NCBI GenBank assembly: GCA_023910605.1
Contig: JAAVVV010000001.1
Span: forward strand, 1-64,000
Length of the DNA stretch: 64,000 bases
Origin: Bosea sp. (in: a-proteobacteria)
GTDB taxonomy: Bacteria > Pseudomonadota > Alphaproteobacteria > Rhizobiales > Beijerinckiaceae
Direction of reading: 5' to 3'
Below, piece after piece: positions 4,367 to 27,659 of the stretch. The translations under genes were made by a program, and so were the position numbers. Positions within the stretch are counted from its first letter, which is position 1; every line of letters starts with the position of its first letter. Below the pieces are notes generated by a model. It made no database searches. It saw nothing but the letters and a program-made list of their open reading frames with translations, and was not told the origin of the DNA.

Positions 4367-4443
4367 AGGATTCCCCACATGATTCACCGGGAAAATGAGC
4401 GATCAGAACACCAAAAGATACGTGGGGTTGCCTACACGCTTAC

Positions 4444-4795
4444 GTTGCAGGTCGATCCGCCGCCAGCGCACCACGCCGTCTACAGCGCGGTTGGGGCCGG
4501 TCTCGACGATCTCGGACAGCTCCACCAGTTGCGCCTGCGACAGACGTCTTGGGTTCCCCCGGCGACGGTTGTCCTTCAACTCGGCAGGGCCTTGCTCATT
4601 AAACCGATGCGCCCAGTCCCGTAGCGTCTGGCGGTCCATGCCGCCGATCTTGGCGGCCTCCGCCCGGCTCATCCCGTCCAGCGCCGCAGCGATGGACAGC
4701 AATCGTCGACTTTGGTTCGCATCCTTGCCCGATGCCGCCAGGCGGCGCAGCTCGGCGGGAGTATGGCTCGGCTTGATCTCGACAACCTTCGGCAT
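4444..4795 (-). pseudogene. IS630 transposase, N-terminal fragment
   Basis: About 117 codons from MPKVVEIKPSHTP to WRRIDLQR are left, covering the N-terminal helix-turn-helix segment (SRAEAAKIGGMDRQTLRDWAHR). The rest, including the DDE catalytic domain, is gone, and the frame runs into IS66 sequence. One difference from the complete copies is visible (GPAELKD against GPAGLKD), so this is an independently diverged copy. Non-functional. Confidence 0.9.
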
Positions 4796-4875
4796 GGCGT
4801 GGGTCCTCCACGCACTTTGAATCACGCCGCAGTCAGTTTGGGAACCCTCGGTGAGTCAGGTCAAAGGGCCTTTGG
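4444..4875 (-). mobile_element. IS630 element cut by IS66 (copy 3, 432 bp remain)
   Basis: The sequence from 4444 to 4875 matches the transposase-start side of the complete copies at 10549-11705 and 26445-27601. It ends at the same terminal repeat (reading CCAAAGGCCCTTTGACC on the minus strand) followed by TA. The other side stops exactly where IS66 begins. The missing part is not found on the far side of IS66, so it was deleted. Confidence 0.9.
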
Positions 4876-4876
4876 T

Positions 4877-5314
4877 ATTAGCCCTATTATGGCGTTCTTC
4901 GCCCACCATGACGTGTGGGAGACCATCGCGCGGCTATGCAAAGAGCACGGCTACCAGTTGACGGTCTATATCGATGACGTGACCATATCAGGCAGTTCGC
5001 TTTCGCCGCAGGTGCTTTGGGACATCAAGCGTGCGATTCATGGCGCAGGCCTTCGGTATCACAAAGAAAAGTCTTTCATCGACCAGCCTGCCGAAATCAC
5101 CGGAGTAATTGTCGATGGCGATCGGCTGCTCGTTCCCAACAGGCAGTTGAAGAAGTTGCATGAAACGCGCAAGGCACTCAAAGGACACGTTGCCCCCGCA
5201 ACAGAGCAGAAGCTTCGCGAAAAGCTGTCGGGGCTACAAGGTCAGGTCGCGCAAATCGCAGCTCTAACCGACTCTCCCGTCAGCAGTATCCTCGCCGCCC
5301 CTTCTCCCGCTTGA
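4877..5314 (+). pseudogene. Reverse transcriptase, C-terminal remnant
   Basis: The frame begins at the IS630 border and reads ISPIMAFFAHHDVWETI, then VYIDDVTISGSS and GLRYHKEKSFIDQPAEITGV. The YIDD is the YxDD active-site motif of reverse transcriptases (fingers/palm domain, motif 5). The preceding SPIMA corresponds to the end of motif 4. The tail (NRQLKKLHETRKALKGH) resembles retron and other defence-associated bacterial reverse transcriptases. The first half, with the other catalytic aspartate, was lost in the deletion that joined IS630/IS66 to the integrase. About 145 codons remain. The exact subtype cannot be told from this part. Confidence 0.75.
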
Positions 5315-7210: not shown

Positions 7211-8796
7211 ATGACCCCATCTGTCTCCGCAGCGGTCTTGCTGCCGCAGAATACCGCGTTGCCGCCGTGCGCCGAACGTCCCGGCACCCCAATGGCTGGT
7301 GACTTGCCAGCTCATGTGTCGGCAGTGGACACAAACCATGGTGCGGTCGCCATCTATGGCGCTGCGCAACGTCTTCTCCCTCATCTTGAGCAAGGTCAGC
7401 GTATCGACGCCGCCATTCTGCGCTCGGTCATGACCGACGCCTTCGGATCATCCGATGCTGCTGGCGGCTGGGACTGGAAGCTCGCCTATGAGGCGACGGA
7501 AGCCGCGAGCGTACTGTTCCTGAGACGACATGGCCCGGCCCTGATCGCCAAAGCGGGCTCGCCGGACGCGATGCTGTCGCCAACGCGACCGGATTGATCG
7601 GTTCAAATCGACGATCGAGATCTCAGCACACACCCGATCGATCAGCGCAGCACATTGCGCGAACGCCCACGCAGCCAGCACGCTCCCTCTCTGGACCAGA
7701 CGTGCCTGCTGCCGTCCGGCCCGCATCCCGCGCTGCGCCACCTGACGGCGTGCCGCTCGCCTACGAAACCTGCGACGGGTGTCCTCCAGCGACACCCGCA
7801 TCAGCGAGGCGATCTACGAGCCCTACGCCTTGCAGACTATCGTGATTGCTGGCGCGCAGCCCCATCCGACGGGGCTTGTGCAATCCGCCGCCATGGCCTC
7901 GGTCGCGCCGCCGAAACCCACCTATCAACCGATGTTGCCGCCGCGCCTGATCACTGACGGCATCCTGTCTGACGCCCAGCTTGAGACCATCATCCTTGCC
8001 GGCGAGGCGCATGAGGGTCATCTCGCAGGATCATGGACGGTTGATGCCGCCGGCGATGTGGTGATGGCCGCGCCCGATGATGCCAGGGACGCCGTCCGCT
8101 TCCGGCAAGGCTTCATGCTGGGTGATGGCACAGGCGCAGGCAAGGGCCGCCAATGCGCTGGCATCCTGCTCGATCATTGGCTGCGCGGACGCCGGAAAGC
8201 GCTCTGGATCTCCAAATCAGACAAGCTGCTGGAAGACGCCCAGCGCGACTGGTCATCGCTCGGCATGGAAAAACTGCTGGTCACGCCCCTGTCGCGCTTT
8301 GCCCAGGGGACCCCGCGACCTGCGCGCGCTCGGGCTCTACACCTCACGATCACTGTCCTATGTCGGCGTGCGCTATGAGCTCGTTGAACACACGCTGACG
8401 GAGCCGCAGCGGCAAATCTACGATGCCTATGCCGGGGCCTTCGGCATCATCCACCGCAACCTCAATGCCGCGCTGGAAGCGGCCAACATCACGAGTGGCA
8501 AGGTAGCCGAGAGCGGCAGCGGCCAGGGCGGCAAGGGAGCCACCCTCAACGCGCAAGCCAAGGCTGCGGCGCGCTCGGCGTTCGAATCCACCAAGCAGCG
8601 CTTTTTCGGCCATCTCCTGACGGCGATGAAGACGCCGACCTTGATGCGTTCGATTGAGGAGGACCTCGCAGCAGGGCATGCCGCTGTCATCCAGATCGTC
8701 TCGACCGGTGAGGCGCTGATGGAGCGCAGGCTCAGCCTTATCCCCACCTCAGAATGGAACGATGTCCAGGTCGATCTGACCCCGCGCGAATACGTC
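7211..8796 (+). pseudogene. Strawberry-notch-like helicase/methylase gene, decayed 5' part
   Basis: Fragments of a very large plasmid-type protein (Sno-like SF2 helicase, usually preceded by a methyltransferase domain) lie in several frames. Residues from AIYGAAQRLLPHLEQGQRID match the N-terminus up to about 7594. A stub of the methylase region follows at about 7605-7690. Next comes the helicase start with Walker A GDGTGAGKGRQ (about 7800-8310). A jump at about 8312 then drops the DEAD-box region and changes frame before RDLRALGLYTSRSLSYVG continues to REYVL at 8796. Internal deletions and frameshifts make it non-functional. The gene resumes at 16321, after the RIT/TOTE element. Confidence 0.8.
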
Positions 8797-8822
8797 TTAT
8801 CCAGAACTCCGGATAAGACGTA
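8791..8822. repeat. 12-bp hairpin at the left junction of the RIT/TOTE element
   Basis: TACGTCTTATCC and GGATAAGACGTA are perfect inverted arms around an 8-base loop. The left arm begins with TACGTC, which belongs to the target gene and also closes the right end (16315-16320). The right arm merges into the terminal repeat. The right end of the element has no such hairpin. Confidence 0.8.
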
Positions 8823-8976
8823 ATATGCCGCGTCCGCGTTATGCAGAGCGCGGCGCTTCATGTCATTGATATGATGTTTCATTTCGGGATCTCCACTTGG
8901 CATAATCATGATGCCTCTGCTCTCAATCGCAGAAGGACACCCCGACATGACCTCCCCCTCCAACTCTCACCCCGGC
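8817..8976 (+). repeat. Left 160-bp terminal inverted repeat
   Basis: Identical base for base to the reverse complement of 16161-16320. It contains a presumed promoter region, the ribosome binding site AGAAGGA (about 8931-8937), the start codon at 8947 and the first ten codons of recombinase A. Confidence 0.95.
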
Positions 8977-10479
8977 AGCGCGCCAGCCGCCGGGGCTGTC
9001 AGCGGCCAAGCACTTATTTGCGGTTATCTTGCGGATAATCCCAAGTTGTCTGCTGGCGCGCTCAGCGCGGCCCGGCATTTCCTGAAGTGGGTCGCCGACC
9101 AGCATATCGCGATCAGGGATCTTGATACTGCGGCGATTAGTCGTTTTGCGCGACACCGCTGCCGGTGCGGCCGCTATAGCGCCACGCAGTTGCGGGACCC
9201 CGCTTACATCACCGAGGTCCGGAGGTTTCTTCGCTATCTGGAAGATACCGGCCATGTGGCCATTCCAGACGAGGTTGCCCGGCTTGGCCCGCATTTGGCC
9301 TGCTTTTCCGCGTGCCTTGCTGACCAAGGCTACGGCAAGGTCACCTACAACGCCCGCATGAGTCAGGCGCGGCATTTTGCGGAATGGGCTCTGCAGCGAC
9401 GTATTCCGTCCAGCCATATCGATAACGACCTGATTGAGCAGTTTGCCCATCACGACTGCCAGTGCGGGATCAAGACCAAACGCGGCAAGCGGGTCGAGGG
9501 CACCGGCAATAGGGATCGCCGCCGTGGTGCCCGCGCCTTCGTGTCTTTCCTCAGAGTAGAAGGATCGATCCCGGTCGCGTTGGCCACTGAACTACCTGCC
9601 GATCCACGCCTCGCCGATTTTGCCGCTTGGATGCGCCGGGAGCGCGGCGCCACGTCCGAGACGATCAGGCGCTATCAGCAAGAGTTGGGCCGCTGGCTGA
9701 TGAAGCTTGGATCGGAACCGCAGGGGATCACCGCTGCGGTCGTCCGCTCGATCGTTCTGGATCAAGGCGAGGACCGCTCCCGATCGTCAGTCCGCATGAC
9801 GATAACAGTCTTGCGCACATTCTTGCGATTCATGATCGGCGAGGGGTTGTGTGCTCCGTCGCTGCTTCATGCGGTGCCGTCAGGGGTGCGACGCAGGCTT
9901 TCGACCGTCCCAAAGACGATCCCGGCTTCGACCATCGAAGAGATCGTCGCGTCCTGCGGCACAGGCACAGCGGTTGAGGTGCGGGACCGCGCCATCATCC
10001 TGCTTCTCGCGCGGATGGCCTTGCGGGCTGGCGATATCTGGCAACTCCATCTCCGCGACATCGACTGGCGCGCGAGCAGGTTGCGATTGCACGGCAAAAG
10101 CCGACGTGGGGTGTTTATGCCTTTACCGCAAGACGTCGGTGATGCGCTGCTCGCCTATATCGAGGACGCCCGGCCGGTGGTTGCATCCGATCGAGTCTTC
10201 TTGCGCGTCCAAGCCCCTTTCACCCCATTTCGTTCATCGGCCGAGATCGCCGGTATCGTCTCTCGAGTCCTTTCCCGCGGCGGTTTCGTCGGCCTTCCGA
10301 CCGGCGCACATGTGTTTCGGCATTCACTGGCTTCGACATGGCTGCGCGGTGGCGCGGAACTGGATCAGATTGGGGCCGCGCTGCGCCACGTGTCACGCGA
10401 CACAACCGCAATCTACGCCAAGGTCGATGTCGATATGCTCGGGGCGATGGCCCAGCCTTGGCCGGGGTATTCAGCATGA
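8947..10479 (+). CDS. Tyrosine recombinase A of the RIT trio, with extended N-terminus
   Basis: A 510-residue recombinase. The catalytic domain (about 310-500) shows Arg in RMALRAGDIW, a Lys in LHGKSRRG, HVFRHSLAS and the nucleophile in TTAIYAKVD. The N-terminal half contains two similar blocks, one ending FARHRCRCGRY and one FAHHDCQCGIK, each with an H-x-C-x-C motif, before the usual core-binding domain (about 195-290). This looks like a duplicated domain, perhaps metal-binding. The start at 8947 is chosen because the ribosome binding site AGAAGGA precedes it and the opposite terminal repeat starts its gene at the same point. It overlaps recombinase B by 4 bp (ATGA). Confidence 0.88.
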   Translation: MTSPSNSHPGSAPAAGAVSGQALICGYLADNPKLSAGALSAARHFLKWVADQHIAIRDLDTAAISRFARHRCRCGRYSATQLRDPAYITEVRRFLRYLEDTGHVAIPDEVARLGPHLACFSACLADQGYGKVTYNARMSQARHFAEWALQRRIPSSHIDNDLIEQFAHHDCQCGIKTKRGKRVEGTGNRDRRRGARAFVSFLRVEGSIPVALATELPADPRLADFAAWMRRERGATSETIRRYQQELGRWLMKLGSEPQGITAAVVRSIVLDQGEDRSRSSVRMTITVLRTFLRFMIGEGLCAPSLLHAVPSGVRRRLSTVPKTIPASTIEEIVASCGTGTAVEVRDRAIILLLARMALRAGDIWQLHLRDIDWRASRLRLHGKSRRGVFMPLPQDVGDALLAYIEDARPVVASDRVFLRVQAPFTPFRSSAEIAGIVSRVLSRGGFVGLPTGAHVFRHSLASTWLRGGAELDQIGAALRHVSRDTTAIYAKVDVDMLGAMAQPWPGYSA

Positions 10480-10548
10480 TGCATCACCATGTTGACCGCT
10501 ATATCAACCTTCACCGCGCCCTCGGAAAGGGGTTTGCCAAACATGATA

Positions 10549-11705
10549 CCAAAGGCCCTTTGACCTGACTCACCGAGGGTTCCCAAACTGACTGCGGCGT
10601 GATTCAAAGTGCGTGGAGGACCCACGCCATGCCGAAGGTTGTCGAGATCAAGCCGAGCCATACTCCCGCCGAGCTGCGCCGCCTGGCGGCATCGGGCAAG
10701 GATGCGAACCAAAGTCGACGATTGCTGTCCATCGCTGCGGCGCTGGACGGGATGAGCCGGGCGGAGGCCGCCAAGATCGGCGGCATGGACCGCCAGACGC
10801 TACGGGACTGGGCGCATCGGTTTAATGAGCAAGGCCCTGCCGGGTTGAAGGACAACCGTCGCCGGGGGAACCCAAGACGTCTGTCGCAGGCGCAACTGGT
10901 GGAGCTGTCCGAGATCGTCGAGACCGGCCCCAACCGCGCTGTAGACGGCGTGGTGCGCTGGCGGCGGATCGACCTGCAACGTGTCATCGCGGACAAGTTC
11001 AAGATCGCGTATCACCAGCGCAGCATCGGCAAGCTGCTGAAGCACCTGGGCTTCTCGCACATCAGCGCCCGGCCACGGCATCCCGGGCAAGATGGCGAGG
11101 TCATCGCGGCTTTTAAAAAAACTGGCCCAACACGCTCGCGGCGCACATCAAGGGCGTGACGCGCAAGACGAAGATCGAGATCTGGTTTCAGGATGAGGCC
11201 CGCATCGGCCAGAAGAACGGGCTCGTCCGGCAATGGGCGAGGCGCGGCACAAGACCTACCCAGCCTGCCGACCAACGCTATGAGAACGCCTATCTCTTCG
11301 GTGCCATCTGCCCCGAAAGAGGCGTGGGCGCGGCCCTCGCTTTGCCCCATGCTGACACCGACATGATGCAACTGCATATCGACGAGATATCCCTGCACGT
11401 CGCCAAAGGCGCTCATGCCGTGCTGCTGCTGGATCGAGCCGGATGGCACATCACCGGCGACCTGAACTGGCCGAAGAACATCACGCCGATCCTGCTGCCC
11501 TCGCGCGCGCCGGAACTGAACCCCGTGGAGAATATCTGGCAGTATCTGCGTGCCAACTACCTCTCGAACCGCGTCTTCGAGACATACGCCGACATCATCA
11601 ATGCAGCCTGCGAGGCCTGGAACAGGCTCACCGAAAGGCCCGACGTCATCACATCAATCGGGATGCGCCACTGGGCGCAAACAGGTCAGTTGTAAGGGCC
11701 GTTAG
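10549..11705 (+). mobile_element. IS630 element, complete copy inside recombinase B
   Basis: A 1157-bp element flanked by TA on both sides, the target duplication typical of IS630/Tc1. The terminal repeats read CCAAAGGCCCTTTGACC at the left and CTAACGGCCCTTACAACTG at the right (inward). It is virtually identical to 26445-27601. Confidence 0.93.
10629..11695 (+). CDS. IS630 transposase, two frames joined by frameshift
   Basis: Two overlapping frames encode one DDE transposase of about 355 residues. The first runs from 10629 (MPKVVEIK, helix-turn-helix) to a stop at 11159. The second holds the catalytic part, with KIEIWFQDEARIGQKNG, AVLLLDRAGWHITG and APELNPVENIWQYL (acidic triad D, D, E). The frames meet at TTTTAAAAAAAC (about 11112), where a -1 slip joins AFKK to NWPNTLAAHIKG. 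The same run is kept in the other full copy, which favours programmed frameshifting over a chance mutation. Confidence 0.88.
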
Positions 11706-12547
11706 TATGAGAGGTCCTTGCGCGAGTTCGCCGCATTTGCTGCTGACCGGACCGATCCGCATGTAACCGCGGCACTAATCCTCGAGTGGGCAGGCAGGGC
11801 GGCCACGCCTAATTCTGCACAAGACCGATATGATCAGGCCCGCGCCTTCGCGATGTTCCTGCATTCAGAGGACGTGCAGCACGAGGTTCCAGTGGCAGGG
11901 TTGTTCGGCCGGTCAAGGCGCCGCCGACCCGCTCCCCACATCCTGTCGCAAGACCAGATCAATGGCATCCTGACGGAGGCACTGCTGGTTCCCGGCCTGT
12001 CCCCGATCAGCCCACAGACCTATCACACGCTGTTCGGATTGCTGGCCTCGACAGGTCTGCGCATCTCGGAAGCATTGTCCCTGCGTTGCGACGACCTGAC
12101 GGAAGATGGGCTGATGATCCGCAAGGGCAAATTTGGCAAGAGCCGTCTCGTCCCTCTTCACGCCTCGACCCGTGCAGTGATGGAGCGTTATCTCGATCAG
12201 CGGCGCATCGTCCGTGATGCTGGTCATGACCTTTTCGTGCTCGGGCACGGTCACGCACCGACGGCGACGAGAGCACACGTGGTCTTCGTACGGATTGTGC
12301 GCAAGCTCGGTTACCGCAATCCGACTGGTCCCGGCCCCCGGCTACACGATTTGCGCCATACCTTCGCGGTTCGGTCCCTGGAGACCTGCGGAACTGATCC
12401 GCAGTCCGTCCTGCGGCACATGCGGGCCCTGAGCACCTATCTCGGCCATGTCGATATCGCCAATACCTATTGGTATCTCGAAGCCACGCCTGTCTTGTTG
12501 CAAATGATTGCGGCAAGGGCGGAAGAGACGTGGATCGGGGGTGCAGC

Positions 12548-13561
12548 ATGACCCCGCTCGCGCCTGACCTGTCATCTTTCCTGCAAAAGCATCTGCCCGA
12601 CGAACGTGGCGCCAGCCAACATACCATCGCCGCCTATGCCCACGCGTTCACCCTCCTGCTACGGTTTGCGGCCAAACGCCTTAAACGACAGCCTTCTGAC
12701 CTTGCGATCGAGGATCTCGACGTCAGACTGATCAGGGCCTTTCTCGAGTACATCGAAGAAGGTCGGGCCAATACCGTGCGATCCCGCAATGCCCGGCTGG
12801 CAGCCATCAAGGCATTTTTCCGCTTCCTTGAGCCACGGCGTCCAGCCTGCCTCGAACAGGCGATGATGGTGAGAGCGCTGCCCGTCAAACGCACGGATGT
12901 AAAGCTGATCGACTACCTGACGAAGGACGAGGTGCGCGCCTTGCTTGCGGCCCCAGACGGCAGAGCGCCGGCTGGGCTGCGTGATCGGGCGATGCTTCAC
13001 CTGGCCTATGCCGCAGGACTGCGGGCGTCTGAACTTCTCGCGGTTCGGATGGACGATTTCCCGAAGGGATCGTTCGCCAATATCCGGGTGCTCGGGAAGG
13101 GGCGGCGGGAACGGGTGCTGCCGCTCTGGAAGGAGACACAAGCAGCCATTCGGGCTTGGCTCGCCGTCCGTCCCAATGATCTCGGGCCGGAACTGTTCCT
13201 GAACCACGATGGCGGCCCGATGACACGGGATGGTTTTGCCTACCGGCTCCGCCAACATGTTTCCGCGGCGGAACGCACGACCCCTTCGATTGCCGACAAG
13301 CACGTGACCCCGCATGTGCTGCGGCACAGCTGCGCCATGCACACGCTGCAGGCTACAGGTGATGTCCGCAAGGTCGCCCTTTGGCTGGGTCATGCCAGCC
13401 TCCAGACGACCGAGATGTACTTGCGCGCGGACCCGACCGAGAAGCTCGCCCTTCTCGAAGCGCATCATGCCCCACTGATCAAGCCGGGCAAGTTCCGGCC
13501 GCCGTCTGACAAGCTGATGGCAATCCTTGCGGCCGCGACGGGCACGAAGACCCGGCGATGA
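12548..13561 (+). CDS. Tyrosine recombinase C of the RIT trio
   Basis: A 337-residue recombinase. The N-terminal SAM-like core-binding domain (about 5-110) is followed by the catalytic domain with AGLRASELLAVRMDD, VLGKGRRERVLPL, HVLRHSCAMH and LGHASLQTTEMYL, giving all the expected R, K, H-R, H and Y residues. The start at 12548 overlaps the stop of recombinase B (ATGA), which argues for translational coupling of the trio. The C-terminus is lysine/arginine-rich. It ends 67 bp from the convergent primase-helicase gene. All catalytic residues are intact, but the partner B is broken. Confidence 0.9.
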   Translation: MTPLAPDLSSFLQKHLPDERGASQHTIAAYAHAFTLLLRFAAKRLKRQPSDLAIEDLDVRLIRAFLEYIEEGRANTVRSRNARLAAIKAFFRFLEPRRPACLEQAMMVRALPVKRTDVKLIDYLTKDEVRALLAAPDGRAPAGLRDRAMLHLAYAAGLRASELLAVRMDDFPKGSFANIRVLGKGRRERVLPLWKETQAAIRAWLAVRPNDLGPELFLNHDGGPMTRDGFAYRLRQHVSAAERTTPSIADKHVTPHVLRHSCAMHTLQATGDVRKVALWLGHASLQTTEMYLRADPTEKLALLEAHHAPLIKPGKFRPPSDKLMAILAAATGTKTRR

Positions 13562-13628
13562 CCATCGCACTGTCCTGAGCTCTTGCCGGCCCACATACCA
13601 GCAGCGTCCCGCACAGGGTGGGGCACTG

Positions 13629-16190
13629 CTATTCCATCACATAGCCAAGTGCACGGTATCCCGACCGCCGTTTTGCGGCCATTCTCGCCAGTACTGGAAC
13701 GGCACTATCCACGTAGTCCACGACCAGAACGTCCTTCTTGCCGTCATGTTGCCTATGCAAGCGCCCAACATATTGCGCCAGCGTGCCCTTCCACGCGATC
13801 GGCATGGTCAGGAACAGGGTATCCAGCCGCGGGTCATCAAAGCCCTCACCGATGTAGCGTCCTGTCGCAAGGATCAGCCGCTCCTCGTCTTTGGGGACAT
13901 TCAGTGCGGCGGCGGCGGATTTGCGATCTTTCGCCGACATGCCGCCTCGCAGGACGACCAGATTCTTCGCAAACTTGGAGAACCGCTGCTGGAGATAATC
14001 CAGATGGTCTTTGCGCTCGGTCAGCACGATCGGGGACCGCTTCGCCTCGAGCGATTTCAGCACATCATCAAAGATCTGATCATTTCGACCGGCGTCCTCA
14101 GCCAAGGCGGCATAGATCGCGGGCATCGATGGCCGTTCCGCCATCGCAAGCATTTCGGGCAGTTTGAACCGCGTGTGACGCTCGCGCGCCCGATGCCGAA
14201 TGCCGCTCTCAGCAGCCTGCGATCTGGCATGAACCTGATGCCGTATGGGGCCGCATTGCATGAAGATGATGGGATGGTGCCCGTCTTTTCGGGCGACGGT
14301 TGCCGACAGACCGACGACATAGCGCGCCTTCGTTCTGCGCGCGACAAGTTCAAAACTCGCCGCAGACAGGTGGTGGCATTCGTCGACGATCAACTGGCCG
14401 TAGTCAGCCACGATGTCGTCGACCTCGCCGTTTCTGACTAGGCTCTGGATCAAAGCCACGTCAATCACGCCCGTCGGTTTGCGCTTTCCACCGCCTATTG
14501 TGCCAATCTGTTTGGGGTCGATCTGGAGGAAGGTCTTCAGCCGCTCGACCCATTGGTCGAGAAGTTCCCGACGATGCACCAGAACCAGCGTGTTTCGGGC
14601 GCGATAACCAATCAGGGCCGACGCAACAACAGTTTTGCCGAAGGCCGTGGTCGCGGCGAGCACGCCAGTATCATGCGCGGTGAGCGCCTCATAGGCGCGC
14701 TGTTGCGGCGGCCGAAGCTCACCAAGGAACCGAACCGTGTTCGGCAGCGGGGTTCCATCGCTGCGCTGGTCGTCCAGTTCTGCCTTGGCGCCGTGTTCGG
14801 TCAGGATTTCAACCACCTCATCAAAGCAGCCTCGCGGTAAGGCAATGTGGCGTGGGTGCAGCTCGGCACAAGCGACCACGCGAGGCTTTCCGAAGGTGGG
14901 CAGCCGCATCGCCTGCGCCCGATAGAACTCGGGGTTCTGGAAAGCTGCGACCCGTACCAATTGGGCAATCATAGCAGAGGGCAGCCCGGTTCGGTCAATG
15001 TAGACCTGATCTGCGACTGTCACCTTGATGTTTGGCGGAATCACCACGTCCGCAGGCTTTGCCTTCGGGCGTCGCGATGGCAACATTTTCCACGGCTCGT
15101 CAGCATTTTCGTCTTCAACTGGCATTCGAACTGCCAGCACCTGACTGGACGCCTCTGCGGCTGCAACAATGCTGGATACCGCCGCCGCGGACAGTCTCGG
15201 CAGCGTCGACAGATACGCCCACTGGTCGTCGTATGGCTGAAGATACTGATCGAGAAAGACGCAATTGCCGACCCTCCGCGCGCTGTGCTGCAGCGGCAGG
15301 GCGATCAGGTTTCCAAAACCGCCGAGGGGCATCGTGTCCTGGTTTGGGAAGAGGCGGTCATAGGATGCAAAGCCGATCTCCGGTCGCCTCTCCATGGTCT
15401 CCGTGATCAGCGCCGATCCAAGCTGGCGGGCAGCCCGGGCCGATACCGGTTCGGCGAAGAAGATCCAGACATGGCCGCCGTTGCCCGATCGGGATCGTTC
15501 CAGCGCAGCAGGCACTTCTTTTGCCCGGCAGGTTTCGAGCAGGGCACTGGCGTCCTCCGCCCATGAATCCCTGTCAAAATCTGCTGCCAGGAACCAGCAG
15601 GTGTCGTCCCGCAACAACGGGTAGACGCCGGCCACGAAGTCAGCCGAAGGGCCCTCGCCGCCCCGTAGGTGCCGTTCGATGACGCTGGCGTCGGGGGGTA
15701 TGAACCGCTGATGCTTGCAGTCCCCGCATTTGACGGTCGGTTTTCCGCAGATGCCTTTCACCCATTCATTGAAGCAGGCAGGCGAATAGCCGGCGCGTCC
15801 TGTCTTGCGGTTCTCCCAACGCACCGGAAACACGTCTGGGCGGCCAGCAAACAGGTTGCGGAACAGCTCTACCTTTTCGCTCGAACTCGACATGTTGGTG
15901 ACGGGGGCATTTTCAAAGGATGAACGTTTGGCTTGTGCGGCTATTTCTGCGGTTTGCTTGGCCTCCAGCACCGAAAGCTCCTGCAAAAGTTGACGTTGTT
16001 CCGCATCCAGCTCGGCCAGCCGTGCCCGAACCCTCGCCAATTCTGTTGCTGTGCCGCTTCGATCTACCACCTGTGATTTCCGCCTAGTTGTCCCTTCCCT
16101 CCGACCATAACGGCCAAACGGCTCTGCTGTAAGCATGCCTCCGCTTCCGGCGGTTGTGCCGCCGGGGTGAGAGTTGGAGGGGGAGGTCAT
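13629..16190 (-). CDS. TOTE-type archaeo-eukaryotic primase fused to SF2 helicase
   Basis: An 853-residue fusion. Residues about 45-90 form a coiled coil (ARVRARLAELDAEQRQLL). A cysteine cluster (CGKPTVKCGDCKH, about 155-167) precedes the primase core with FLAADFDRDSW (metal-binding D-x-D), RSRSGNGGHVWIFF and SYDRLFPNQDTMPLGGFGN, the signature of the TOTE conflict-system primase. The C-terminal helicase (about 490-850) has TTAFGKTVVAS (Walker A), DECHHLSAASF, VGLSATVARKDG and QYVGRLHRQH. It begins inside the right terminal repeat with the same ten residues (MTSPSNSHPG) as recombinase A. TOTE primases are proposed conflict or element-maintenance enzymes; the role here could be defence or replication/repair of the element. 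Confidence 0.88.
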   Translation of the reverse strand: MTSPSNSHPGGTTAGSGGMLTAEPFGRYGRREGTTRRKSQVVDRSGTATELARVRARLAELDAEQRQLLQELSVLEAKQTAEIAAQAKRSSFENAPVTNMSSSSEKVELFRNLFAGRPDVFPVRWENRKTGRAGYSPACFNEWVKGICGKPTVKCGDCKHQRFIPPDASVIERHLRGGEGPSADFVAGVYPLLRDDTCWFLAADFDRDSWAEDASALLETCRAKEVPAALERSRSGNGGHVWIFFAEPVSARAARQLGSALITETMERRPEIGFASYDRLFPNQDTMPLGGFGNLIALPLQHSARRVGNCVFLDQYLQPYDDQWAYLSTLPRLSAAAVSSIVAAAEASSQVLAVRMPVEDENADEPWKMLPSRRPKAKPADVVIPPNIKVTVADQVYIDRTGLPSAMIAQLVRVAAFQNPEFYRAQAMRLPTFGKPRVVACAELHPRHIALPRGCFDEVVEILTEHGAKAELDDQRSDGTPLPNTVRFLGELRPPQQRAYEALTAHDTGVLAATTAFGKTVVASALIGYRARNTLVLVHRRELLDQWVERLKTFLQIDPKQIGTIGGGKRKPTGVIDVALIQSLVRNGEVDDIVADYGQLIVDECHHLSAASFELVARRTKARYVVGLSATVARKDGHHPIIFMQCGPIRHQVHARSQAAESGIRHRARERHTRFKLPEMLAMAERPSMPAIYAALAEDAGRNDQIFDDVLKSLEAKRSPIVLTERKDHLDYLQQRFSKFAKNLVVLRGGMSAKDRKSAAAALNVPKDEERLILATGRYIGEGFDDPRLDTLFLTMPIAWKGTLAQYVGRLHRQHDGKKDVLVVDYVDSAVPVLARMAAKRRSGYRALGYVME

Positions 16191-16320
16191 GTCGGGGTGT
16201 CCTTCTGCGATTGAGAGCAGAGGCATCATGATTATGCCAAGTGGAGATCCCGAAATGAAACATCATATCAATGACATGAAGCGCCGCGCTCTGCATAACG
16301 CGGACGCGGCATATTACGTC
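16161..16320 (-). repeat. Right 160-bp terminal inverted repeat
   Basis: Exact reverse complement of 8817-8976. It supplies the upstream region, ribosome binding site and first ten codons of the primase-helicase gene. It ends at TACGTC, followed directly by the strawberry-notch coding sequence. Confidence 0.95.
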
Positions 16321-16955
16321 CTCGATTACCTCAGCCACTCCTTCCCGGTGCAGCTCTATGAGCCCTTCACCGATACTGAGGGCAATCTGCGCTCACGACC
16401 CGTGACCAGGGATGGCCAGCCCGTGCTCTGCCGGGAAGCGGTCAGGCGACGCGACAGCCTGATCGAGCATCTGGCGTCGATGGCACCCGTGCCCGGTGCC
16501 CTCGACCAGATCATCCAGCACTTCGGCACCGAACACGTCGCCGAGGTGACCGGCCGGTCACGGCGTATCGTGCGCAAGCGTGCCGGGGGCCGCGAAGTCA
16601 GTGGGGAGCACGGGCCTTCTGACCCGTTTAGCGGCGGCAATGATCGCCTTGTGGTCGAAAGCCGGGCTGGCAGCGCCAACCTCACGGATGCCCGCGCCTT
16701 CATGGATGACGTCAAGCGCATCCTGGTGTTCTCGGATGCTGGCGGCACCGGGCGCTCCTAGCACGCCGATCTGGGAGCGAAGAACCAGCGCCTGCGGGTG
16801 CATTATCTGCTGGAGCCGGGCTGGAAGGCAGACACGGCCATTCAAGGTCTTGGCCGCACCAACCGCACCAACCAGAAACAGCCGCCGCTGTTCCGGCCCA
16901 TCGCCACCGACGTCAAGGCCGAGAAGCGTTTCCTGTCGACCATAGCAAGGCGGCT
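16321..16955 (+). pseudogene. Strawberry-notch-like gene, decayed 3' part
   Basis: Continues the gene broken at 8796: DYLSHSFPVQLYEPFTDTEG, then AGSANLTDARAFMDDVKRIL and, after an in-frame TAG at 16759 where a tyrosine is expected (GGTGRS-stop-HADLGAKN), HYLLEPGWKADTAIQGLGR and NRTNQKQPPLFRPIATDV. The helicase motif VI region (QGLGRTNR) is present. At about 16955 it breaks off and runs into a different gene remnant. Non-functional. Confidence 0.82.
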
Positions 16956-17342
16956 CGCCGCCGGGCCAAGACCGACATCCTCGTGCCGGCTGGCCCCAAG
17001 GTGGCGCTGACCGGCGGCGCGGCCTTCAATGATCACACCCTGATCTGGGCCAAGCTCGATCAGGTCCAGGCCCGGCATCCCGACATGGTGCTGCTGCATG
17101 GTGGCTCGGATCGCGGGGCTGAACTGATTGCCGCCAAATGGGCCGACACCCGCAAGGTGCCGCAGATCGCCTTCAAGCCGGACTGGACCCGCCACGCCAA
17201 GGCCGCCCCCTTCAAGCGCAACGACGCCATGCTGGAGGTGCTGCCCATCGGGGTGATCGTGCTTCCCGGCTTAGGCATCCAGGACAATCTCGCCGACAAG
17301 GCGCGCGCGCTCGGCATCCCGGTCTGGAGGTGCGGCGGGTGA
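16956..17342 (+). pseudogene. DUF2493 (SLOG-like) protein, C-terminal part
   Basis: The frame ARRAKTDILVPAGPKVALTG continues as VLLHGGSDRGAELIAAKWAD, AFKPDWTRHAKAAPFKRNDA and VLPGLGIQDNLADKARALGI. This is the C-terminal domain of a plasmid protein with a DUF2493/YspA-like SLOG fold, which binds nucleotide-derived ligands. The N-terminal half is missing, replaced by strawberry-notch sequence at about 16955. A GTG at 16983 could in principle start a product of about 119 residues. Confidence 0.7.
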
Positions 17343-26377: not shown

Positions 26378-26444
26378 GTCGATCACTCCATGTTCCCCCG
26401 ACCCAAAGCCAGGGAGATGGTCAGAACATGGGTCAAATCTCATA

Positions 26445-27601
26445 CTAACGGCCCTTACAACTGACCTGTTTGCGCCCAGTGGCGCATCCCGATTGATGTG
26501 ATGACGTCGGGCCTTTCGGTGAGCCTGTTCCAGGCCTCGCAGGCTGCATTGATGATGTCGGCGTATGTCTCGAAGACGCGGTTCGAGAGGTAGTTGGCAC
26601 GCAGATACTGCCAGATATTCTCCACGGGGTTCAGTTCCGGCGCGCGCGAGGGCAGCAGGATCGGCGTGATGTTCTTCGGCCAGTTCAGGTCGCCGGTGAT
26701 GTGCCATCCGGCTCGATCCAGCAGCAGCACGGCATGAGCGCCTTTGGCGACGTGCAGGGATATCTCGTCGATATGCAGTTGCATCATGTCGGTGTCAGCA
26801 TGGGGCAAAGCGAGGGCCGCGCCCACGCCTCTTTCGGGGCAGATGGCACCGAAGAGATAGGCGTTCTCATAGCGTTGGTCGGCAGGCTGGGTAGGTCTTG
26901 TGCCGCGCCTCGCCCATTGCCGGACGAGCCCGTTCTTCTGGCCGATGCGGGCCTCATCCTGAAACCAGATCTCGATCTTCGTCTTGCGCGTCACGCCCTT
27001 GATGTGCGCCGCGAGCGTGTTGGGCCAGTTTTTTTAAAAGCCGCGATGACCTCGCCATCTTGCCCGGGATGCCGTGGCCGGGCGCTGATGTGCGAGAAGC
27101 CCAGGTGCTTCAGCAGCTTGCCGATGCTGCGCTGGTGATACGCGATCTTGAACTTGTCCGCGATGACACGTTGCAGGTCGATCCGCCGCCAGCGCACCAC
27201 GCCGTCTACAGCGCGGTTGGGGCCGGTCTCGACGATCTCGGACAGCTCCACCAGTTGCGCCTGCGACAGACGTCTTGGGTTCCCCCGGCGACGGTTGTCC
27301 TTCAACCCGGCAGGGCCTTGCTCATTAAACCGATGCGCCCAGTCCCGTAGCGTCTGGCGGTCCATGCCGCCGATCTTGGCGGCCTCCGCCCGGCTCATCC
27401 CGTCCAGCGCCGCAGCGATGGACAGCAATCGTCGACTTTGGTTCGCATCCTTGCCCGATGCCGCCAGGCGGCGCAGCTCGGCGGGAGTATGGCTCGGCTT
27501 GATCTCGACAACCTTCGGCATGGCGTGGGTCCTCCACGCACTTTGAATCACGCCGCAGTCAGTTTGGGAACCCTCGGTGAGTCAGGTCAAAGGGCCTTTG
27601 G
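26445..27601 (-). mobile_element. IS630 element, complete copy 2
   Basis: 1157 bp, flanked by TA at 26443-26444 and 27602-27603, with the same terminal repeats as 10549-11705 but in the opposite orientation. The right flank is the 3' remnant of another gene, so it may also have been a deletion end. Confidence 0.93.
26455..27521 (-). CDS. IS630 transposase (copy 2), two frames
   Basis: Same protein as at 10629-11695. The first frame starts MPKVVEIK at 27521 and stops at 26991. The second carries the DDE domain (IWFQDEARIGQKNG; LLLDRAGWHITG; LNPVENIWQYL). The A7 slippery run is preserved, which supports a -1 programmed frameshift. Confidence 0.88.
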
Positions 27602-27659
27602 TATCAGTGGGAATTTACGAGCCCGCCGGGTCAGTTCTCAGCGGTAATCAACAAATTCG

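Follow-up and report, generated by a model that had tools for sequence, protein, structure and literature searches.

An RIT-type recombinase trio with a convergent primase-helicase gene between long inverted repeats in Bosea and on alphaproteobacterial plasmids

In the first 64,000 nucleotides of contig JAAVVV010000001.1 of Bosea sp. (assembly GCA_023910605.1), a stretch that is called the window as a whole, positions 8797-16320 hold an element that we classify as a variant of the RIT elements with a primase-helicase module: three tyrosine recombinase genes, ritA-ritB-ritC, and one convergent primase-helicase gene lie between long inverted repeats. The element is real; its insertion site, which is precise, lies in a strawberry-notch (sno) gene that has decayed. 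Its parts are given below; loci are denoted by L-numbers throughout.

7271..8796, + strand: N-terminal remains of sno in several frames, pieces missing (tblastn with the intact 1467-amino-acid (aa) plasmid sno of L124; Pfam AAA_34)
8791..8796, + strand: left 6-bp core, TACGTC, adjoining the palindrome on its sno side
8797-16320: whole element, 7.5 kb including an insertion sequence (IS); both ends exact, from the first base of the palindrome to the last base of the right repeat
8797..8816, no strand: 20-bp imperfect palindrome, TTATCC...GGATAA
8817..8976, + strand: left terminal inverted repeat, 160 bp, perfect; contains the probable ritA start
8947..10479, + strand: ritA, tyrosine recombinase, 510 aa, frame open from 8908 (Pfam Phage_integrase, 69.7 bits; starts annotated in relatives)
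10476..10545, + strand: ritB, first ~25 codons, severed by the IS (intact 303-aa ritB in L013, L015 and L025)
10544..11712 (approximate), + strand: IS630-family insertion sequence with orfA (10599-11159) and orfB (11156-11695) (PF13358, NF033545)
11718..12551, + strand: ritB, remaining 277 codons (Pfam Phage_integrase)
12548..13561, + strand: ritC, tyrosine recombinase, 337 aa, overlapping ritB by 4 bp (Pfam Phage_integrase)
13629..16229, - strand: AEP-TOTE primase with XPB-like superfamily 2 (SF2) helicase, 866-aa frame, 853 aa from the ATG at 16190
16161..16320, - strand: right terminal inverted repeat, identical to the left
16315..16320, + strand: right 6-bp core, TACGTC
16321..16956, + strand: continuation of sno beyond the insertion (Pfam, tblastn)

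The terminal repeats show zero mismatches over exactly 160 bp (8817-8976 versus 16161-16320), far above chance. The original prediction for this DNA, made from the letters alone, had described these perfect repeats; the ends that it set, 8797 and 16320, were both exact, and Pfam matches bore out its three tyrosine recombinase frames and convergent primase-helicase gene inside the repeats. Only the three recombinase genes, the IS and the primase-helicase gene were recognised between the repeats, and a sigma-70 consensus scan of the left repeat region (8780-9100) gave no promoter. A search of the Bosea genome returned a single primase gene and a single pair of 160-bp repeats. The gene at the insertion was identified as sno by Pfam AAA_34 and Helicase_C_4 and has decayed too: tblastn shows missing parts and changes of frame. 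It had been described as cleanly interrupted; the precise site in sno was confirmed, but a palindrome lies on one side of the element and a 6-bp core on each.

Relatives of the primase-helicase were searched for in three collections. Among plasmids 274 records matched, 40 of which were listed and 20 regions retrieved; with one genome per species the best 80 of 580 relatives were kept; and 10 of the 397 genomes of the window's order had a match, the window's own included. We tabulated 108 primase loci and counted a trio gene where a recombinase gene lay within about 5 kb of the primase. Because the plasmid regions and the 80 genome loci are best matches, these counts favour close relatives. Matches below 700 bits, such as the broken L014 and the fragment L033, were left out of the counts, and rows for window pieces (L001, L002, L114-L116) and for L007/L012, one broken gene in two pieces, were omitted.

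Among loci with a primase identity of at least 77%, one or more trio genes were found near 33 of 45 and all three near 27. Divided by identity, 8 of the 9 loci at 90% or more had a trio gene nearby (7 with the full trio), as did 25 of 36 at 77-90% (20 with the full trio), 2 of 38 at 70-77% (both with the full trio) and none of 25 below 70%. Many contigs break off early; with the loci restricted to those having at least 4 kb beyond the primase, the same bins gave 5/6, 20/26, 2/28 and 0/13. Thirty loci are convergent as in the window and five are tandem (L029, L050, L077, L067 and L101); in all 30 convergent cases the primase and ritC matches end 55-127 bp apart. In a tree of 87 primases, built by a quick method without rows that had stops or fewer than 690 aa, all 17 convergent rows fell within one 30-row clade (SH-aLRT 100), whose other members are 7 rows with an unknown context, 4 that lack a trio and 2 that have remnants of one. 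In the plasmid collection 21 records contain the terminal repeat, 17 of them twice; six are Dinoroseobacter shibae, and every one of the 21 carries the primase (20) or a primase fragment (1). The family elements, which occur on plasmids and in genomes of Alphaproteobacteria, measure 6.3 kb, with repeats of 148-181 bp where contig ends do not cut them. The original prediction had named two outcomes that would speak for a chance assembly, a primase rarely beside a trio and repeats of this kind absent from other copies. Neither was observed: the 33 of 45 loci compare with 2 of 63 below 77% identity, and long terminal repeats recur in other copies.

Twenty convergent copies, from 16 strains, show the full set of recombinase genes and both flanks, and sno sequence adjoins the element in every one. 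All three parts of the sno query were found within 9 kb in 17 of these copies and two parts in L020, which lacks the first; only the C-terminal part was found in L036 and L044. Inverted repeats were detected in every copy except L044. L014, with its broken primase, also sits in sno. Junctions were tabulated for 19 copies, namely L014 and 18 of the 20, the core table omitting L036 and L044. The order is the same in all 19: N-terminal sno, 6-bp core, 20-bp palindrome, core, repeat, and at the other end repeat, core, C-terminal sno. The ritA end lies beside N-terminal sno in 11 copies and the primase end in 8, and the palindrome TTATCC..GGATAA is on the N-terminal sno side in 19/19, whichever way the element faces. 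In L036 (Pseudogemmobacter bohemicus) C-terminal sno flanks the element on both sides, inverted, in a 1.65-kb inverted repeat at 81% identity. Because the C-terminal part lies on both sides, L036 is read as a rearranged copy, perhaps the product of recombination between two insertions.

A comparison with empty sites had been proposed, and such sites exist. The window's joined flanks matched 417 plasmid records, of which 72 cover at least 80% of the query at one place. The empty site on Sagittula p4 (L125) reads PREYV followed by LDYL across the insertion point, and p5 and p6 of the same strain are occupied; three further empty sites inspected read PREAC followed by LDYL. Because primase and trio are associated, the repeats recur and empty sites are found, the recombinases and the primase-helicase form, on this comparative evidence, a mobile unit.

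Two copies on different plasmids occur in four strains: Gemmobacter fulvus, Dinoroseobacter shibae, Pukyongiella litopenaei and Sagittula sp. MA-2. Within each pair the copies point in opposite directions; element identity is 99.98-100% across 6.29-6.34 kb, against 81-91% in the flanking blocks and 74.5% in one further Sagittula block. The copies of Yoonia and Sulfitobacter are 99.0% identical in the element and 73-82% in the flanking blocks, and L047 and L048, which come from organisms named as belonging to two different families, share two element blocks at 99.3% and 97.5% and flanking blocks at 74-80%. We consider the mobility of the element family to be well supported by sequence comparison. 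The cores of the pairs were examined under a 6-bp rule in which the circle takes the donor's left six bases and the new right junction keeps the circle's core, which gives two equalities for each donor-copy pair. Both equalities hold in one direction in 4/4 same-strain pairs, and 4 of 84 unrelated opposite-orientation pairs fit. Plain inheritance of both cores fits one of the four.

Within an element the two repeats are on average 97.9% identical, versus 86.5% between same-side repeats of different elements. Concerted evolution was not evident element by element: among 15 elements the within-element value was strictly above the best outside match in 7, tied in 3 and lower in 5. In the Sagittula copies L027 and L028 the primase-side repeat is identical over 150 bp to that of Pukyongiella L025 and the primases are nearly identical; the ritA-side repeat and RitA differ. 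The Sagittula element looks like a mosaic of two lineages.

The primase-helicase matches Pfam AEP-TOTE (PF22548) at 323.8 bits and ResIII at 80.7 bits, and also DEAD and Helicase_C. The length given for it earlier, 853 residues, is right if the ATG at 16190 is taken as the start; the open frame spans 866. Residues D217/D219, H253, G531-K532-T533 and D616-E617-C618-H619, which we take to be catalytic, are invariant in all 33 chosen aligned sequences, the window's included. Its median ratio of nonsynonymous to synonymous substitution rates (dN/dS), 0.078, is the lowest among the element's four genes, the others being 0.084 for ritC, 0.108 for the ritB remainder and 0.162 for ritA (45 pairs from 10 chosen loci); by this comparison the primase-helicase is shown to be constrained, as judged from substitution rates. 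Its relatives by sequence in the PDB are XPB-type helicases, UvsW and chain 7nqd, presumably a CRISPR-associated PrimPol. The NCBIfam match to CRISPR-associated PrimPol is weak (84.9 bits, cut-off 200), and the PADLOC PrimPol match reaches 292.8 bits. A structure model, with a mean predicted local distance difference test score (pLDDT) of 72.1 and a predicted template modelling score of 0.56, matches XPB/TFIIH first and UvsW lower, with template modelling scores to the query of 0.2-0.4. The first 50 or so residues lie outside the conserved fold. A primase start inside the repeat was considered as a general rule and rejected: Dinoroseobacter copies are annotated from outside the repeat, and the N-terminal 56 residues of the model have a pLDDT below 50.

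Among the recombinases, the ritB remainder and RitC cover nearly the whole Phage_integrase profile. R373, H468, R471 and Y503 of RitA, which we take to be its catalytic set, are invariant in 8 aligned sequences; the catalytic residues of the ritB remainder and RitC were read by eye only. In the relative L013 the three genes follow in the order A-B-C with 4-bp overlaps, and the ritA start is annotated inside the repeat in the three relatives compared (L013, L018 and L025). The three overlapping recombinase genes that had been seen in the window do overlap, but ritB is cut after about 25 codons by an IS630-family copy that had been missed. Because this insertion splits ritB, the window copy is probably dead and no longer reactive. 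The description as a self-contained mobile unit thus holds for recombinases and primase-helicase as a unit and fails for this copy, which is not self-contained because its ritB is split. The IS copy in ritB is identical to one at 26438-27606 in the window, and the Bosea genome holds nine full-length copies, that in ritB included. A fragment of the same IS lies at 4442-4878 (99.8% over 437 bp).

The 16S rRNA of the window's host has its best match in the plasmid collection in a Bosea plasmid record (95.3% identity), and the window's primase shares 93.4% identity with that of a Paracoccus aminophilus plasmid. We take Bosea to belong to another order than Paracoccus. Because the 16S rRNA fits Bosea while the primase is this similar to that of the P. 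aminophilus plasmid, the element has probably crossed bacterial orders.

RIT elements are given as about 3,500 bp long with repeats of 28-34 bp in the relevant passages of Van Houdt et al. 2012 (PMC3414803). The family described here shares with them the adjacent A-B-C recombinase genes with 4-bp overlaps (as in L013), inverted ends accompanied by a palindrome and identical copies on several replicons. It differs in its length of 6.3 kb, in its repeats of 148-181 bp and in the convergent primase-helicase inside the repeats, which is not mentioned in those passages of PMC3414803. The window element has inverted repeats and a 20-bp palindrome, but the repeats measure 160 bp; a canonical example with 33-bp repeats is found in Sagittula. 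Because the element works in the manner of an RIT and intact relatives have the RIT gene order, while size, repeat length and content exceed the description, we regard it as an RIT variant. For D. shibae DFL 12, PMC3414803 records an RIT in two identical copies, presumably our L018 and L019. No RIT-primase combination was found in our literature search, which did not cover Ricker 2013, so that absence from print is not shown. The terms 'transposon', 'tyrosine recombinase' and 'TOTE' are absent from PMC5862659, on primases of mobile elements, and PMC5512222, in the part concerned, places strawberry-notch-type ATPases beside methylases and reports no tyrosine recombinase there.

As described in parts of PMC10214605, SE elements and Tn554 resemble the family here: they possess several tyrosine recombinases, are site-specific and take along a 6-bp core, as the family would too. 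Their 6-bp footprint rule is the same as that fitted by our four same-strain pairs. Their recombinase sets are different, however, and neither IntA-Tfp-IntB-Srap nor TnpA-B-C is present in the window element, while the palindromic junction, the long repeats and both orientations at one site distinguish the family here. GInts are likewise islands whose movement depends on three genes that encode tyrosine recombinases or proteins related to them, but they have four essential genes, and no primase-helicase is mentioned for them in the passages concerned (PMC5385486, PMC10214605). The primase-helicase itself belongs to the AEP-TOTE primase-helicase family, with a PF22548 domain fused to an SF2 helicase and intact motifs. 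No TOTE conflict-system partner gene was recognised in the element, and the literature search returned no paper on 'TOTE conflict systems'.

More distant relatives with RIT-like ends are found in rhizobia, where primases of 74-75% identity stand alone between 62-91-bp repeats (L052, L062 and L068). Two of six rhizobial elements, L052 and L068, have a 28-bp palindrome on one side in which no more than one pair is mismatched, and score 22 and 28 against a 99% background of 14; in L062, L055, L029 and L101, with ends set roughly, it was not clear. As a control, 0.3% of 2400 random stretches score 22 or more, the best reaching 28, and the window's palindrome scores only 16. The rhizobial target is a DUF736 gene by Pfam in five of seven flanks (L029, L052, L055, L067 and L101; not L062 and L068). 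At nine loci (L029, L050, L055, L057, L060, L067, L077, L101 and L129) a complete DUF736 gene lies 43-44 bp after the primase stop on the opposite strand, and the trios of L029, L067, L077 and L101 are each flanked on both sides by a full DUF736 gene. Only part of the DUF736-linked loci have a trio (L029, L050, L077, L067 and L101). Mobilisation in trans was considered for the primase-only units and gained no clear support. Of four genomes without a trio at the primase, that of L062 holds a RitC relative (E <= 1e-60), and none was found in those of L052, L055 and L068. A repeat search in five genomes gave six matches, two in that of L068 and one in each other, which are taken to be the elements' own repeats.

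We propose the following mechanism for the family. An excised circle would join its repeats through core-palindrome-core, and either core of this junction could recombine with the 6-bp core in sno; because the junction is symmetric, insertion would be blind to orientation. The element would follow a copy-out route in which, after strand exchange, the primase-helicase serves to open the junction and to prime synthesis, with the result that copying takes the place of cutting. That the primase-helicase primes the element's own copying is our preferred reading, held tentatively and at somewhat below even probability, ahead of its being cargo for repair or defence, which is almost as likely. On the side of the primase-helicase, the points in favour are its low dN/dS, its invariant motif residues, its narrow range of spacing from ritC in the convergent loci and the occurrence of the repeat in plasmids only together with the primase or a fragment of it. 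SCCmec, whose Ccr recombinases are of the serine type, offers a parallel. It is moved by recombinases, has its own priming and helicase proteins and is argued to be replicative, but it differs in its Ccr enzymes and in having polymerase/primase and helicase as separate proteins, according to the parts of PMC7581432 concerned. For SE elements, passages of PMC10214605 propose a copy-out route that keeps the donor, and in the model given there the 3'-OH for priming has to be freed from the integrase that is bound to it; the enzyme for this is still to be identified in prokaryotes.

Several observations weigh against this explanation as a whole. The main objection to self-priming is that trios lacking a primase multiply too, as in the case of a 3.83-kb RIT of Sagittula. 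Primase-only units with RIT-like ends occur in rhizobia, and 61 of the 63 homologues below 77% identity (41 of the 63 with at least 4 kb beyond the primase) have no trio gene nearby, so the protein can act without an RIT. Some copies are incomplete: L020 has an IS3-family transposase inside ritA, L044 shows the ritA end only and no repeat pair, and L048 misses part of ritB. The translated primase match contains one or two stops in 8 of the 20 copies, although in three of these, L018-L020, a full-length primase is annotated from a later start. Finally, the time-reversed 6-bp rule fits equally well with donor and copy swapped, so that donor and direction are not fixed; as to a core native to the host, the four empty sites read differ, and the forward and reversed rules both fit.

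The primase-helicase may instead be passenger cargo that aids the host plasmid or cell, through damage tolerance or in anti-phage or anti-plasmid conflict, with the RIT merely as its carrier. We regard this as a serious possibility short of being the favoured one. Trio-free homologues are common and highly conserved, the primase domain matches CRISPR-associated PrimPol (below the NCBIfam cut-off) and the PADLOC PrimPol, the helicase matches XPB-type enzymes, TniQ genes adjoin a few rhizobial homologues, and Pfam describes the AEP-TOTE domain as part of a 'conflict system'. However, neither a nuclease nor a toxin nor any other effector was recognised among the genes of the element. No defence family dominates 150 of 214 selected flanking open reading frames of trio-free homologues either, where AbiEii (5), DUF736 (4) and TniQ (3) were found. 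Of 107 PADLOC families matched, the 25 listed comprise AbiEii, with 5 members, and for the most part helicase-type models, each with 4; the latter matches are probably the same few SNF2 proteins.

An unlikely alternative is that the primase-helicase replaces the plasmid's own pair of sno helicase and toprim primase, broken by the insertion. A toprim primase gene does lie within 15 bp after sno in two intact plasmids, elements of another RIT class interrupt a toprim gene and have complete toprim copies within their repeats, and some rhizobial primase elements sit in a DUF736 gene and bring a full one beside the primase. The primase-helicase is not homologous to sno, however; the rhizobial relatives target DUF736 and not sno, and several occupied plasmids still have annotated toprim genes of normal length close to the disrupted sno. 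A chance assembly or one-off capture, to which the location of most homologues below 77% identity elsewhere might point, is rejected, as gene order, spacing and adjoining sno are constant in 20/20 copies, inverted repeats are present in 19, and the 17 convergent tree rows share one well supported 30-row clade.

Self-priming could be extended to a wider statement, which we put forward as doubtful: some alphaproteobacterial plasmid RITs would be copy-out elements with a primase of their own (the AEP primase-helicase in a sno branch, a TOPRIM primase duplicated in 1.1-1.2-kb repeats in a toprim branch), whose palindromic junction allows insertion either way at one conserved plasmid gene, at least one branch carrying an intact stand-in for the gene that it splits. 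According to parts of PMC10214605, RIT transposition has, to its authors' knowledge, never been reproduced in the laboratory, and its 2023 table gives target specificity, empty site and movement of RITs as not tested. To part of that table the family gives comparative answers: one exact site, matching empty sites, both orientations and a 6-bp core that would travel. The palindrome would explain both orientations at the sno site. Since a primase-helicase is linked to a recombinase-driven element, the source of priming in copy-out movement by tyrosine recombinases becomes testable, and the family may help to explain how such mobile units copy themselves.

A canonical 3.83-kb RIT with 33-bp repeats lies near the primase element in both Sagittula copies (15389-19221 in L027, 4598-8430 in L028). 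It is 100% identical on p5 and p6 and has a one-sided palindrome of its own, and its three protein accessions are also annotated on p4. Primase-helicase homologues on Agrobacterium and Sinorhizobium plasmids (L030 and L031) stand beside TniQ, in L030 also with TniB and a transposase, which suggests association with a second type of transposon.

The Bosea genome also contains a second RIT trio, at G000:C1:353500-361000 (L138) and 766200-773800 (L139), between 1206-bp inverted repeats with 2 mismatches. Each repeat holds a complete, identical 351-aa toprim primase gene (DUF7146 and Toprim_3), and the element interrupts a toprim gene after residue ~65 and has a palindrome on one side; apparently it brings along an intact substitute for the interrupted gene. 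Because the flanks of L138 and L139 are shared too (99.2% over 6.5 kb), the two may be one insertion that was duplicated. The toprim-RitABC-toprim layout was met on three plasmids retrieved: Sagittula p4 (L150), Rhodobacter xanthinilyticus pEJ01 (L152) and Aminobacter pAA02 (L151). In L150 and L152 the repeats, of 1139 and 1135 bp, are 100% identical and contain divergent full toprim genes, 52% like a plasmid toprim; both elements split a toprim gene, the halves of which are 76-85% like it. L151 includes two additional transporter-type genes, and its second toprim gene runs off the stretch.

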